From Candidatus Altimarinota bacterium (GTDB taxonomy: Bacteria; Patescibacteriota; Gracilibacteria; BD1-5; UBA6164), in NCBI GenBank assembly GCA_028689115.1, contig JAQTWV010000001.1:721539-785538 (forward strand): a stretch of DNA of 64,000 bases, given 5' to 3'. The translations under genes were made by a program, and so were the position numbers. Numbering within the stretch: position 1 is the stretch's first letter; each line of letters opens with the position of its first letter. The notes under the pieces are model-generated. The model made no database searches, was not told the origin of the DNA, and saw only the letters and a program-made list of their open reading frames with translations. Shown here one piece after another: positions 1,574 to 57,996 of the stretch.

Positions 1574-1599
1574 AAATTTGGAGCGGGGGACGAGGTTTG
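1574..1599. repeat. 26-bp direct repeat, distal copy of tRNA 3' end
   Basis: Exact 26-bp copy of 1744-1769, which is the acceptor/T-arm 3' end of tRNA-Gly(UCA) plus CCA and a few flanking bases. The two copies are 170 bp apart in the same orientation, the arrangement left by site-specific integration at a tRNA 3' end, although the enclosed segment is too short to be an autonomous element. Confidence 0.8.
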
Positions 1600-1686
1600 G
1601 CGCCCTTCGGGTCGGCCATCCGTTTTTATTGCTCTTATTCATCGCAATAAAATTTTTACTTCGTAAAAACCCTCCTTTCAAACCTC
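1574..1686 (-). ncRNA. Candidate structured RNA ending in a copy of the tRNA-Gly 3' end
   Basis: Downstream of tRNA-Gly(UCA) on the minus strand lies a GC-richer segment that can fold on itself: GAGGTTTG (1679-1686) pairs with CAAACCTC (1592-1599), enclosing three hairpins (TTTTTAC/GTAAAAA, TTTTATTGC/GCAATAAAA and a CCC-GAA-GGG stem). The 3' part (1574-1599) is identical to the 3' end of the tRNA including CCA. It also carries an AAAGGAGGG sequence. It matches no RNA family I know. It may be a degraded tRNA duplication, an attachment-site footprint, or a real small RNA. Confidence 0.35.
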
Positions 1687-1748
1687 TAAAAATAATAATT
1701 ATTTTTGTAGAAATTTGAAGCTCTGTTATGTTTGTTGTGTTTTAAATT

Positions 1749-1827
1749 TGGAGCGGGGGACGAGGTTTGAACTCGCACACCCAAGGGTTGAAGCCTTAGT
1801 ACACTCACTCTTTTATGTTACCCCCGC
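1749..1827 (-). tRNA. tRNA-Gly(UCA), decodes UGA as glycine
   Basis: A 76-nt tRNA body plus encoded CCA. The acceptor stem is GCGGGGG/CCCCCGC with U73, the anticodon stem is TAAGG/CCTTG with loop CTTCAAC giving anticodon UCA, and the T-arm is GCGAG-TTCAAAC-CTCGT. The acceptor, U73 and T-arm are those of bacterial tRNA-Gly. A tRNA-Trp(UCA) of the mycoplasma type or a tRNA-Sec with its long variable arm is excluded. The D-arm is weak (ACAT/GTGT) and its loop lacks the usual GG pair, so the fold may be unusual. This is the tRNA needed for the UGA-to-Gly reassignment seen in the window's proteins. Confidence 0.9.
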
Positions 1828-10255: not shown

Positions 10256-10939
10256 CTATTTCAAATTATAATGACCATTTTCTACATCTGAAATTATCTT
10301 TCTATCATGAAAAGTTATAACTCTTTTGTTTAATGCATTTACTATATTTGAATCATGAGTTGCCATAATTATAGTTTTTCATTCCATATTTAAATCCAAA
10401 AATATATCCATAATTTCCTTTGCAGTTTCTGGATCTAGATTTCAAGTTGGCTCATCTCAAATAATAATTCTAGGATCATGAACTAATGCTCTTGCAATTG
10501 CAACTCTTTGTTTCTCTCAACCTGATAATTCATAAACAAACTTATCTTTTTTTATCAAAAGTCATACTTTTTCAAGTGCTTCTGGTACTTTTTTTCTAAT
10601 AAGTGCATCGCTATAACCGCAAACTTCCATAGCAAATGCTACATTTTCATATACTTTTTTTGATTCAAGAAGTTTATAATCTTGAAAAATAACTCATACT
10701 TCTCTTCTATAAGAAAGCAAAGTTTCTTCTGTCATTCATCTATAAAGTGCTAAATTACTATCTAAAATTATATCTCATCTTTCTGGACGAAAATCTCAAA
10801 TAATAGATCTAATAACTGATGTTTTTCAACTACCAGAATAACCAATCATAAAAACAAATTCTCACTTTTTTATTTCTATATTTATATCTTTTAATATAAC
10901 TTTATTTCTAAAAGAAAGTGTAACATTATCTATCTTCAT
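10256..10939 (-). CDS. ftsE: FtsE-like ABC transporter ATP-binding protein
   Basis: A 227-residue ABC ATPase. Walker A is GYSGSGKTS, where the second-last Gly is a TGA codon. The Q-loop is VIFQDYKLL, the signature LSGGEKQRVAIARAL (one Gly as TGA), Walker B RIIIGDEPTGNLD, and the H-loop MATHD. The EPTGNLDP stretch and short length match FtsE, the cell-division ATPase that with FtsX controls peptidoglycan hydrolases. No ftsX follows it here: the next gene downstream is the FISUMP adhesin, so FtsX would have to be elsewhere or the protein serves another FtsE-like exporter. Upstream lies the EF-P gene, 80 bp away. Confidence 0.85.
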
Positions 10940-11019
10940 TTATTTATTTTTATATTTTAATTTATTATAATTTAGTAATTTTTCTATAAAATGCAATTTA
11001 ATAGAAAAATTACATAAAA

Positions 11020-11568
11020 TTATTTTACTTTATCTACAAATTCAAAAGTTGATGTATTAACAACTATTTCATCTCATTCCTCAATAAAAGGAGGAACTTC
11101 AAGTTTAAGTCATGTATTTGTTATAACTTCCTTATTTTCACTACTTCAAACAAGTGGTAAAGCTTCAACAACTTTTAATTTCATATAAGTTGCCAATATA
11201 ATTCATACAAAATTTCAATTATGTTGTTGTATATCAATTGTAGCTCATTCAGATAAAAAATACTTCATATCACCTACATCATCTTCACTTAGTTCAACTT
11301 GTTCATAATTTTCACTATTCATAAATACATAAACTCAAGAAGAATTATATAAATATTCAAAAACTGTTCTTTCTAAAATTACATCATCAAGTTTATCATC
11401 ACTACTATATACTTTGTCTGTCATAGAACCATTTCAAATATTTTTTAATCTCATTTTAACTGTTGTAGCTCATCTACCTCATCTATGAGATTCCCATTTA
11501 GTTACAAAATATAAATCTCAATCTATCTCTACTACACAACCTGGTCTAGTTTCAAATGCTGTTTTCAT
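11020..11568 (-). CDS. efp: Elongation factor P, Arg at the modified tip
   Basis: A 182-residue EF-P with three beta-barrel domains, which binds ribosomes stalled on polyproline and promotes peptide-bond formation. KOW-like domain I starts KTAFETRPGCVVEIDGDLYFV. Domain III ends with the conserved GLKLEVPPFIEEGDEIVVNTSTFEFVDKV. The tip loop reads WESHRGGRGATTVKM; the position that is Lys34 in E. coli is Arg here, as in EF-Ps that are rhamnosylated by EarP, although no earP is in the window. About a dozen in-frame TGA all lie at Gly positions. It is transcribed leftward, probably after the antiporter gene. Confidence 0.93.
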
Positions 11569-11649
11569 AAAAAAAATAATTATTAATTAATATTACTAAT
11601 ATTAACTATAATTATTTTTTTTCAAAAATATAATAAAAATATATTTTTA

Positions 11650-13782
11650 TTATGCCATTTTTTTAACATCACTATACATCTCTTTTTCTATTTCATCCAT
11701 AAATTTAAAATACAACTTAGGAGTAATTATTTCTTTATGATACAAATCTTTTATAGTTTTTTCTTCTAACTTTAAAAGTGATTTATTTACAAGCCTAGAT
11801 TCTACTGCATTTATTGTAGCTTTATGATTTGTAAATATTTTTATTCTCTTTTCATCTGCTTGTTTATTAAAAAATGCATATAATTCTATGATTTCATCAA
11901 AAAGTGATTTATCAAATCAAAAATCAATTTCAGCTAATATTCTAAGTTCTTTAATTACTTTTCTTGTAATTATAAGTCTTGTTCTATTTCTAATATATGA
12001 ATCTAAATCAGTTGAAGTTCTTTTATAAATATGAACTACACACCTAGTAAATATATCATAATCATTTTTCTTATTTGAGATACTACTTAATTGTTCATGA
12101 GATGATTCTAATCTTTCAATTTGTTTTTCTATTTTTCTAAGTATATATTTGAAATTTTTCTCATCAATTTCATTATATAAAAATAATTCTTTTAAATATT
12201 GTTTTTCAATTCAAAGCGCATGAAGTGATAATGCTCTTCTAATAAGAGTTTTTGGATCTGCTCATTTTTCTTCTAAAACTTTTTTCATCTTTTTAACAGC
12301 ATGATTTAGTTTTTCACTATACTTATCTTTTAACTCATCATATTCATTTTGAGTTAAATATGCTTTTTTGAAAGAAAGATTTAATTTTTGAATAATTTTT
12401 AAATTTGATAATATTTTTCATTCTTCATATTCAAATTCTTCAAGTTTATGTAATCTATCAATTCATAATCTTCTCATTATTATAGGAGTTGTTGGAGCTT
12501 TAATAAATAATGTAAACATTATACATCAGATAGTTAAAACTAATAGAAAATCTTTTATAGAATAATCATAATTCCATCAAACTGTTTGTTGAAATAATAA
12601 TATTTTTTCATACCCAACATCACCTACTCACGGAATTAACAATACCATCATCAAAGCAAGTGCTCATCTTAAACTTCACCAAGAAAGTAAAATTGACCAA
12701 GAGTTAGGAATATGGTCTTCTATTTTGAAAAAATTATTTATTCATACTGGGATATAAACTGAAATAATTCTAGAAATCATAACTACTAAAATAGCTACAA
12801 ATAAAGGTATAATAAATTCACTGAAATTTATATCTAAGTCACTAAGAATTAATCACATAAGTATAAATACAAGTGAATTTGAAATAAATGCAAAAAATTC
12901 CCAAAATTTATGCATATGAATTTCAACTCTTGGTGTAATCTTATATCTACCATAATTTCAAATTACAATTGATGCTATAACTGTTGCTATTACTCAAGAA
13001 ATAGGTAAAAATGGAAATTTTTCAGTTATAAGTTCAGCAAATATAAAAGTAATATGTGCTAAAAGCATAGTTATAACTATTTCTGCTTCCTCATTATTTT
13101 TTATGTATCAAAGTATTTTACTAAATAAAAAACCTGTAAATCATCAAAAAATAATTCAACCTCATACCATAGAAGCAAATTTAAGAGTTCCATCCAAAAA
13201 TGTTGAAGCTCAAATATTACCTCAATCTATTATCAATCAAAGTACAACTAAAAACATAGCTACTGCTGTACCATCATTAAACAAACTTTCTCCCTCAAAA
13301 ATAATAGTTAATCTTCTAGGAGCTCAAAGTGATTTAAAAATTGATAAAACTGCTACTGGATCTGTTGCTGAAATAAGAACTCAAAACAATAAACAAACCA
13401 TAAAAGGAATATGTAGTCCTACAAATGGAAAAAGATAAAACAATCAAAGCGCAATTAATGCTCAAGAAATTATTAATCAAAAAATAGATAATCATGCGAT
13501 TGTTTTCCAATTCATAATTAACTGTCTATAATTCATATTATATGATGCTTCAAAAAGCAATACTGGCAATAACACATAAAATAATAAATTTGGTGTTAAT
13601 TGAAAGTCATCTATAAATGAAAAAATTGGAATATGAGAAATTGGTATTAATAATAATCAAACAATTACTAATAATACTGTATAAGGGAAATTTATTCTTT
13701 TACTTAAAATATAAGTAAAAGAACTAATTATAAGTAAAAATAAAACTGCTAGAGTTTGAGATAAAAAACTTATTTCTTCCAT
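11650..13782 (-). CDS. Na+/H+ antiporter, CPA1/NhaP type
   Basis: A 710-residue monovalent cation/proton antiporter. Residues 1-430 hold about twelve hydrophobic helices with the family motifs: FEASYNM, ATDPVAVLSIFK (the ion-site motif ATDP), and EGESLFNDGTAVA (FGESLxND motif). The last 250 residues form a charged, largely helical cytosolic domain with a coiled-coil look (SFKKAYLTQNEYDEL, LEEKTIKDLYHKEIITPK), as in plant and bacterial NhaP relatives with regulatory tails. It would exchange Na+ or K+ for protons across the cytoplasmic membrane. A 75-residue stretch on the plus strand inside it is only a shadow frame. It lies upstream of efp. Confidence 0.85.
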
Positions 13783-40551: not shown

Positions 40552-40582
40552 AAAAAAGTTAGCTTAAAAGCTAACTTTTTTA
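40552..40582 (-). terminator. Terminator at the end of pnp
   Basis: AAAAAAGTTAGCTT / AAGCTAACTTTTTT stem with a short loop, overlapping the TAA stop of pnp at 40580-40582. Confidence 0.85.
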
Positions 40583-42865
40583 ATTGTTTTCTTTATGATC
40601 TTTAAGTTTAATTTCAACCTTAACATGTGGTTTTTCTGCAGTTTCAACAGGAGTAGTTACTTTTATAGCTTCCATTTCTTTTAATTCAGCTTCACTTAAT
40701 TCTCTTTTTAAACCTATTCTTCATTTTTCAATATCAACTTGAACTATTTCAAATTTAACTTCATCTCAAACTTTAACAACATCTTCTACATTGTTTATTC
40801 TCTTGTAACTCAATTTTGAAATATGTATCATTCAAGATTTACCTTTAAAATCAACTATTGCTCAAGTTCATTCAATAATCTTTGAAACTACTCAAACTCA
40901 TTTGTATCCAACTTCTGGATTCCATAATTTTGCTTTTATTTCAGCAATTGCTTTTTCTCATCAAATTTGATCAACAGCAGTAATTGTTGTCATACCATCA
41001 TCTGCAATAGATATTTTTACATTGTATTCTTTTTCCATTCTTTGAACATTTTCTCAACCTTTTCAAATAATTGGACTTATTTTATCTACTGGAACTTGCA
41101 TAATCATGATAAGTGGTGCATATGGAGATAACTTTTCAGCAACCTTCGGTTGCACTTCTAGCATTTTACCAATTATATATTCAATAGCTCATTCTGATTG
41201 TTTAAACGCATCTCTAAATACATCCATTTTTAATCATTTTATTTTCACATCAAGTTGCATAGCAGTTATACCGTTTTTAGTTCTAGCAACCTTGAAGTCC
41301 ATATCTCACAAGAAATCTTCTTGTGCTTGTATATCACTAAGGATCTTATATTTATGAGTTTCTTCATCATAAATCATTCACATAGCTACTCATGCAACTG
41401 GTTCTTTTATAGGAACTCATGCATTCATAAGACTCATTGTAGAACCACAAACTGAAGCCATAGAAGAAGAACCATTACAAGTAGTAATTTCAGAAACTAC
41501 TCTCATAGTATAAGGAAAATCTTCTACACTTGGTAAAACTGGAATCAATGCTCTTTCAGCTAATGCTCAATGCCCTATTTCTCTTCTACCAACTCATCTC
41601 ATCATTCTTACTTCTCAAACTGAATATGGAGGAAAATTATAGTGATGAATATATCTTTTTTCACTTTCTGGCATCATACCATCAAGAGTTTGTACATCAT
41701 CAGGTCCTCATAGAGTTGTTATAGACAATGCTTGAGTCATACCTCTTTGGAAAAGCGCACTTCAATGAGTTCTTGGTAATAGTGAAGTTTCTCAAATAAC
41801 TGGTCTAACTTCATCTAGTTTTCTACCATCAAGTCTTTTAGAGTTATCTAAGATATTTGCTCTCATAACTTCTTTTACTCTTTTATAAACAAGAGCTCAA
41901 ATAGAAGTTTCATCTATTGCTTTTTCATTTTCACTAGATTTTTCTCAAATTGTATATCATTTTGAAACTAAGTATTCTCTTACTTCTAAATCTAGATTAT
42001 CAAGTTCTCATTGAAATTCTTTTTTTCATTTTTCATAAAGAACTTCCATTTTTTCACTTGTTAAAAATGATTTAACTTCATCATAAATAGTTTCATCAGG
42101 TTTATTATAAACAGCTTTTGCCTCAACTATTTCAAATGTTTTTTTATATTCTTCTATAAAATCAATTTGAGAATTACATATTTTTTTGATTATTTCATGA
42201 GATTTTTCAAGAGCCAAAATCATTTCTTCATTACTAACTTCATAAGCTCAAGCTTCAACCATAGTTATAGCATCAAGAGTTCAAGCAGTTAATAGGTTTA
42301 ACTTAGCCTCACTTTCTTGACTAGAAGTTGGATTAAAAACTATACTATTGTCTTTCATAAGTGAAACCTTACAACCAGAAACTGGTCATTCAAAAGGAGT
42401 TCAAGCAATAGTTAATCATAAACTTGCTCAAACTATTCACCAAATACCTAATTCTCTTTCTCCTGAAGATGATAAAACAGAAGCTATGATTTGAGTATCA
42501 TTTACAATCCCTTTTGGAAACATAGGTCTAATTGGTCTATCAATAATCCTAGCAGTTAGTGTTGCTTCATCTGTAGGCCTTCCTTCTCTTCTTTGAAATC
42601 TATTTCATCCTATCTTACCTGTAGCATAAAATTTTTCTTGCCATTCTACAATTAATGGAAAAAAATCTGAATTTAAATTTAATCAATCTTGTTTAAATCA
42701 TGTAGAAACAAATAAAACATTATCATTATCATCACTTATTGTAACAGCACCATTTATAAGTAAACCTAATTTACCAGTCTCAAAAGTAATTTTAGTACCT
42801 TCTATATCATAAGTTTTTCTTAAAGGTTTAACTAAAACAGCTGTTTTATCAGATAATCAAATCAT
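40580..42865 (-). CDS. pnp: Polynucleotide phosphorylase
   Basis: A 761-residue 3'-5' exoribonuclease that degrades RNA phosphorolytically. Two RNase PH domains ([27 protein letters not shown]-like [25 protein letters not shown]; second core [85 protein letters not shown]) flank the all-alpha linker. The KH domain ([21 protein letters not shown]) and S1 domain (GYKGVGVVSKIIEGTGAIVDF) follow, then an acidic C-terminal tail. Many catalytic glycines are GGN, some TGA. It starts MIGLSDKTAV. Confidence 0.95.
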
Positions 42866-56922: not shown

Positions 56923-57792
56923 ATGCTTACAATAATATTTAATAAAAAAATAAAAAAGATGATAATAGATTGAAAAGAAATAGCTAAGAAAATATATGAT
57001 GAAATAAAAAAAGAAGTTTCTCTTTTGAAAACAAAACCAACTCTTGGAGCTATTTTAGTGTGAAATAATAGTTCAAGTTTGAGATATATAGAACAAAAGA
57101 AAAAATGGGCAGAATACACTTGAATAAATTTCAAATTAGAAAAATTTGATGAAAAAATAAGTGAATTAGAATTGTATAACAAGATCAAAAGTTTCAATGA
57201 AAACCCAGAAATAAGCTGATATATAGTTCAATTACCTCTTCCAAAACATATAAATTCTCAAAAGATAATAAATAATATTCACCCAAAAAAAGATGTAGAT
57301 TGATTTCATCCAAATAATCAAGGTAAGGTTTTACTTTGAGATGAATCTGGATTTGTACCTTGTACGCCTGCTTGAATATTGGAAATATTAAAAGAACAAG
57401 AAGTACAATTAGAATGAAAAGTAGTATGTGTAATTTGAAGAAGTAATATAGTTTGAAAACCAATTATTTCACTTTTAATAAACGCTTGAGCTACAGTTTT
57501 GGCTTGTAATAGTAAAACTAAAAACTTATCTAAATTTTCAACACAAGCTGATATAGTTATAGTTGCAGCTTGAAGTCCATGACTTTTGAAAGTAAATATG
57601 CTAAAAGTTTGATCAATAATTATAGATGTATGATTTACAGTTATAGATTGAAAAATATATTGAGATGCTGATACAAAACTAATTGATTTAGTTTGAAGTA
57701 AGGTTACTCCAGTTCCAGGTTGAGTTTGAGCATTAACAGTTGCATGCTTGATGAAAAATACTCTAAAAGCTTACAAGATTCAAAACAAATAA
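56923..57792 (+). CDS. folD: FolD, methylenetetrahydrofolate dehydrogenase/cyclohydrolase
   Basis: A 289-residue bifunctional enzyme of one-carbon folate metabolism. Motifs: YIEQKKKWAEYTGI (catalytic Tyr/Lys region), KKDVDGFHPNNQGKVLLG, VPCTPAGILEIL, VCVIGRSNIVGKPIISLLINAGATV (NADP-binding GRSxxVG) and the end PVPGGVGALTVACL, where PGGVG has two TGA glycines. The family normally begins near MIIDGKEIAKKI, which corresponds to the Met at 56959; the first ATG at 56923 adds twelve residues and may or may not be used. It stands alone, followed by a terminator. Confidence 0.93.
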
Positions 57793-57910: not shown

Positions 57911-57987
57911 AGCGGGTGTAGCTCAATTGGCTAGAGCATCTGCCTTCCAAGCAGAGGGTTAAGGGTTCGAGTCCCTTTACCCGCTCC
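57911..57987 (+). tRNA. tRNA-Gly(UCC)
   Basis: 74-nt body plus CCA. Acceptor GCGGGTG/TACCCGC with U73, anticodon loop CTTCCAA (anticodon UCC), T-arm AAGGG-TTCGAGT-CCCTT. A normal tRNA-Gly for GGN codons, the counterpart of the UCA-reading one at 1749-1827. Confidence 0.93.
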
Positions 57988-57996
57988 ATTTAAAAA

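Follow-up and report, generated by a model that had tools for sequence, protein, structure and literature searches.

tRNA-Gly(UCA) in a code-25 gracilibacterium: a probable UGA-to-glycine decoder with an unusual body conserved across its order

A tRNA-Gly with the anticodon UCA, together with genetic code 25, was reportedly described for Gracilibacteria/BD1-5 and Absconditabacteria/SR1 by Campbell and by Rinke, both in 2013, and some of the structural features treated below may already be drawn in those reports. Known tRNAs-Gly(UCA) of this code combine the anticodon, an acceptor end of the glycine type and U73 as the discriminator, and they occur where UGA is read as glycine and RF2 has been lost, features that are all shared by the locus studied here. 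The reading of UGA as glycine in Gracilibacteria and Absconditabacteria is established (PMC4032931, PMC8629427), and in one BD1-5 bacterium 97 peptides were unique to this reading compared with 3 for tryptophan (PMC4032931). Here, we analyse a 64-kb stretch of DNA (hereafter, the window) that carries a tRNA gene with this anticodon. Because UGA as glycine is established in this group, the window represents a new member of the known code 25, not a new code. We conclude, with a probability of roughly 0.94, that the gene is a GlyRS-charged tRNA-Gly(UCA) decoding UGA as glycine in a code-25 gracilibacterium, and we find that its body departs from the canonical form in ways that are shared throughout its order.

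ARAGORN calls a tRNA gene with the anticodon tca at exactly 1749–1827, the coordinates at which the original prediction had placed a tRNA reading UCA through the loop CTTCAAC, and adds the strand (minus), which had not been given. The covariance score that had been proposed as a check is 45.9 bits with the Rfam tRNA model (E = 1.4e-6 for the window; cut-off, 29 bits), the lowest among the five tRNAs of the window yet well over the threshold, and the tRNA observation is confirmed. The transcript parses as GCGGGGG / UA / ACAU-AAAAGAGUGA-GUGU / A / CUAAGG-CUUCAAC-CCUUGG / GUGU / GCGAG-UUCAAAC-CUCGU / CCCCCGC / U / CCA, giving a molecule of 79 nt with a 7-bp acceptor stem, a 4-nt variable loop and a gene-encoded CCA. 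A sixth anticodon-stem pair, the outermost C-G, had been overlooked. Glycine identity, at first read from the acceptor stem and U73, is supported by the full glycine signature (G1-C72, C2-G71, G3-C70 and U73, by the criteria of PMC8629427), which is also present in all 23 homologue sequences. Among 30 tRNA matches in the source genome (1.23 Mb in 4 contigs, rated 80% complete), only one has the UCA anticodon. The ordinary tRNA-Gly(UCC) of the same genome is present as predicted, one base away from the coordinates first assigned to it (57911–57987). It resembles the UCA tRNA in an acceptor stem that begins GCGGG and ends CCCGC, in U73 and in C35; unlike the UCA tRNA, it has G10-C25, U16, a D-loop GG, five anticodon-stem pairs and a variable loop of 5 nt.

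Table 1 Features of the window and the evidence on which each is placed
Feature	Description	Position	Strand	Basis
tRNA-Gly(UCA)	Probable decoder of UGA as glycine; CCA encoded	1749..1827	-	ARAGORN, Rfam, parse, homologues
D-arm	ACAU-AAAAGAGUGA-GUGU; D-loop without G18-G19	1801..1818	-	Parse and homologue alignment
Anticodon arm	Stem of 6 bp (CUAAGG/CCUUGG) and loop CUUCAAC, with the UCA anticodon at 1789-1791	1781..1799	-	Parse, covariation, RNAalifold
Acceptor 3′ strand	CCCCCGC followed by U73 and CCA; forms the glycine signature with the 5′ GCG (1825-1827)	1749..1759	-	Parse; criteria of PMC8629427
PNPase gene	39 in-frame TGA; basis for the meaning of UGA	40580..42865	-	Codon count, alignment
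FolD gene	20 in-frame TGA; basis for the meaning of UGA	56923..57792	+	Codon count, alignment
tRNA-Gly(UCC)	Ordinary tRNA, reader of GGN codons; comparison	57912..57988	+	ARAGORN, parse

The proposed meaning of UGA is supported by codon use, by alignments, by the release factors and by the presence of a glycyl-tRNA synthetase. In 45 open reading frames of the window, TGA accounts for 790 of about 16,400 codons (4.83%) compared with 240 GGN codons, and thus for 77% of the glycine codons; with TGA treated as sense when the frames were called, 38 of them stop at TAA, 7 at TAG and none at TGA. When TGA was masked as X, glycine stood at 18 of the 20 TGA sites of FolD in the alignment with its best PDB match (counted by eye), and at 18 of 31 aligned TGA sites of PNPase, where alanine came next with 6. 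The rpoB gene of the source genome contains TGA throughout. RF2 was not found in this genome, the sole match to the RF2 model falling below the cut-off and being the RF1 protein (473 bits with the RF1 model versus 281 with that of RF2), whose gene has 15 in-frame TGA; given a rated completeness of 80%, the case for a missing RF2 draws also on the relatives described below. The genome encodes a GlyRS of the dimeric type, which scores 498 bits (cut-off, 243).

These data bear on two other ways of reading a UCA tRNA. ARAGORN names the gene 'tRNA-SeC', and the UCA anticodon would suit a selenocysteine tRNA, but the body is not of that kind, because its acceptor and T stems are 7/5 and no long extra arm is present where an 8-bp acceptor and a long variable arm would be expected; moreover, SECIS-directed selenocysteine cannot explain UGA codons at this frequency in ordinary genes and at glycine columns. 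On structure (the 7-bp acceptor stem and 4-nt variable loop, with U73) and on codon use, we reject this identity as extremely improbable. The second reading, in which UGA would mean tryptophan through this or another tRNA as in Mycoplasma, draws on the UCA anticodon of the Mycoplasma tRNA-Trp. Tryptophan, however, is never the partner of a TGA site in the FolD and PNPase alignments, the discriminator is U73 rather than G73, the genome has a separate tRNA-Trp(CCA), and the reassignment would lower glycine to 1.5% of residues. We regard it as having next to no chance of being correct and reject it on the aligned columns and U73.

The original prediction described a D-arm with an ACAT/GTGT stem and a loop lacking GG; the parse bears out both, whereas the view that this is an oddity of one copy does not hold. 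A tRNA pattern search of 84,980 species genomes returned 46 records, most of them titled Candidatus Gracilibacteria, in keeping with the predicted placement in the Gracilibacteria branch, and the remainder titled 'bacterium', 'uncultured bacterium' or Patescibacteria; near-identical tRNAs are among the named Candidatus Gracilibacteria records. The same pattern had no match in viral contigs, and a phage-borne tRNA was rejected on that ground. A D-loop of the form AANNGAGYGA, without G18-G19, and six anticodon-stem pairs are common to all the UCA tRNAs that we recovered from the order's three families. Among 23 distinct homologues, 99.4% of pair cells are paired and compensatory changes occur in all four helices, with eight pairs altered on both sides (shuffles doing as well, 0 of 500), including D-stem pairs 1 (A-U to G-C) and 3 (A-U to U-A). 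At the sixth position of the anticodon stem, the pair is C-G and once U-A. RNAalifold, unaided, predicts the same cloverleaf with the sixth pair included. Folding of the single sequence failed to return the cloverleaf and was uninformative. The odd D-arm and longer anticodon stem are thus a feature of the whole order, and an origin by chance or as a pseudogene was rejected on this conservation. A tRNA in decay, or one without a role in translation, would be in line with the low covariance score and noncanonical D-loop of the gene, and some non-translational tRNAs-Gly do have D-loops without GG. It is nevertheless the sole UCA tRNA in a genome with thousands of UGA codons, it encodes its CCA, and its homologues are up to 100% identical across genera and show compensatory stem changes, so that we consider either state very unlikely.

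Among 29 tRNAs of the genome itself, only the UCA tRNA and one with the anticodon CCG have D-loops without GG; among the 32 tRNAs of one genome of family f13, there are none. The tRNA(CCG) (L031; G000:C3:319950-320023, minus strand) has G73, the D-loop AATTCGAA and the T-loop TGCAATT; between these loops, C18 and G55 would make up a compensated pair at the elbow. CGG has been proposed to mean tryptophan in some Gracilibacteria (PMC8629427), and neither CGA nor CGG occurs among the approximately 16,400 codons of the window. A further tRNA-like gene of about 101 nt (L032; G000:C3:429729-429829, minus strand; 42.8 bits) carries a long insert within its anticodon arm, has no ARAGORN call, and is a pseudogene or an interrupted tRNA. 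Separately, the UCA tRNA, tRNA-Gln and tRNA-Val of this genome, as well as the UCA tRNA of a relative, each have on their 3′ side a structured element of about 95 nt (window 1579-1690; L134:119-240; L135:285-400; L044:1596-1720). After each copy, the 3′ end of the host tRNA is repeated from T-loop position 57 on, and the 5′ end of the element is complementary to the 3′ strand of the host T-arm. The element has no match in viral sequences and none in Rfam, where the best hit is far below the cut-off.

Comparison across the class, in a sample of 89 genomes, places these features in context. In the order itself and in f13, presumably the Absconditabacterales, RF2 is missing and RF1 usually has in-frame TGA, whereas in nearly all other genomes with matches RF2 is present and RF1 lacks in-frame TGA (in the RF1 tree, one row, G066, is read on the wrong strand). 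Two UCA tRNAs of f13 were read, and a BLAST search with an f13 UCA tRNA as query returned no further f13 copy. Both are canonical: that of G177 has the D-arm GUUU-AAUGGUA-AGAC and the anticodon arm CUAAG-CUUCAAC-CUUGG, and that of G071 likewise has GG in its D-loop and a 5-bp anticodon stem. In contrast, the window tRNA lacks the D-loop GG and has one extra anticodon-stem pair, and most of the order has A10-U25 instead of G10-C25. Taking one G-C pair out of the anticodon arm of the window tRNA yields the arm of G177, a likeness that, on one sequence, suggests common descent of the two. Because the f13 UCA tRNAs that were read have a canonical body, the altered body is dispensable for reading UGA. 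Within the order, family f3 has the D-stem GCUU/GAGC, which keeps G10-C25, with a loop already of the odd type; the odd D-loop is therefore older than, or independent of, the change at G10.

Whether the altered body is itself functional is harder to judge. The odd D-arm and sixth stem pair could be an adaptation, for instance to avoid UGG, to read UGA more strongly or to mark the tRNA for GlyRS, as their maintenance over three families and the rarity of GG-less D-loops in the genome might suggest. tRNA-Pyl, another reader of a former stop codon, shares the six-pair anticodon stem and the absence of G18-G19 (PMC7609411). The likeness is a resemblance only, with no sign of kinship: unlike the UCA tRNA, tRNA-Pyl has a D-loop of 4-5 nt, a 3-nt variable loop, G73, the anticodon CUA and its own synthetase. 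Against an adaptation, f13 also reads UGA as glycine with GG loops and five stem pairs, so the changes are not required, and conservation by itself cannot separate selection from lock-in with GlyRS. We therefore hold an adaptive role to be possible but lean towards doubting it.

The suggestion that the D-arm matters for acceptance by GlyRS fits what is known of the enzyme. The dimeric GlyRS of Thermus is reported to depend on G1-C72, G10, U16, C35, C36 and C50-G64 (PMC9976931), of which the UCA tRNA keeps G1-C72, C35 and C50-G64 and lacks G10, U16 and C36, having A10, A16 and A36 instead. With these three missing, recognition by GlyRS would have to be relaxed, and the enzyme of this order would have to rely on the acceptor end, on C35 and perhaps on the T-stem. 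The usual elbow contact with U55-C56 should likewise be impossible in the standard way, because G18-G19 are absent; the invariant GAG of the D-loop may provide a substitute. Charging of the UCA tRNA by GlyRS is assumed here, since these determinants and the elbow G18-G19 are missing. In the mechanism that we propose from sequence, GlyRS would charge tRNA-Gly(UCA) with glycine and the charged tRNA would decode UGA as glycine in vivo, while tRNA-Gly(UCC) would handle the GGN codons and, with RF2 lost, RF1 alone would terminate at UAA and UAG. Most likely, the elbow has been rebuilt, with the GG-less D-loop and longer anticodon stem tolerated or co-adapted, and would be matched by a GlyRS that has lost its dependence on G10, U16 and C36.

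A different combination is seen in Candidatus Gracilibacteria PL25b_bin.48 (JANQMV01; G011, family f14), the UCA tRNA of which (L131:4485-4561) is of the glycine type at its acceptor end and canonical in its D-loop. This genome has in-frame TGA in two PilB-like genes, where 5 of 7 sites (counted by eye) are at glycine columns, and in GDGC-type repeats, housekeeping genes such as rpoB without TGA, and an intact RF2 (464 bits, with SPF and GGQ motifs) that lies 3 kb from one of these TGA-containing genes on the same contig, L169 (loci: L169:6984-8006, minus, and 10877-12127; L182:5103-6905). An rpoB tree, with weak backbone support and three badly translated rows (G079, G066 and G209), does not group f14 with the recoded clades. 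The pattern could reflect an independent or unfinished reassignment of UGA to glycine. A mixed assembly keeps some probability as its source; the contig shared by RF2 and a TGA-containing gene argues against it. On a broader view, which we consider unlikely, the body would have been rebuilt under selection within the order (through the GG-less D-loop, the sixth pair and the dropping of G10, U16 and C36 as determinants) to read UGA and only UGA, whereas elsewhere in the class there are UCA tRNAs-Gly with a canonical body, one of them in an RF2-keeping lineage that may represent an independent, unfinished reassignment.

Together, these observations locate the UGA-to-glycine recoding of this genome in a single UCA tRNA. 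They also provide a comparative set consisting of an order whose UCA tRNA is rebuilt, a family that lacks RF2 and whose UCA tRNA is canonical, and a genome with both a UCA tRNA-Gly and RF2. With this set, two questions can be put to the test: by what route GlyRS became able to accept a tRNA lacking G10, U16 and C36, and which came first, the gain of the tRNA or the loss of RF2.
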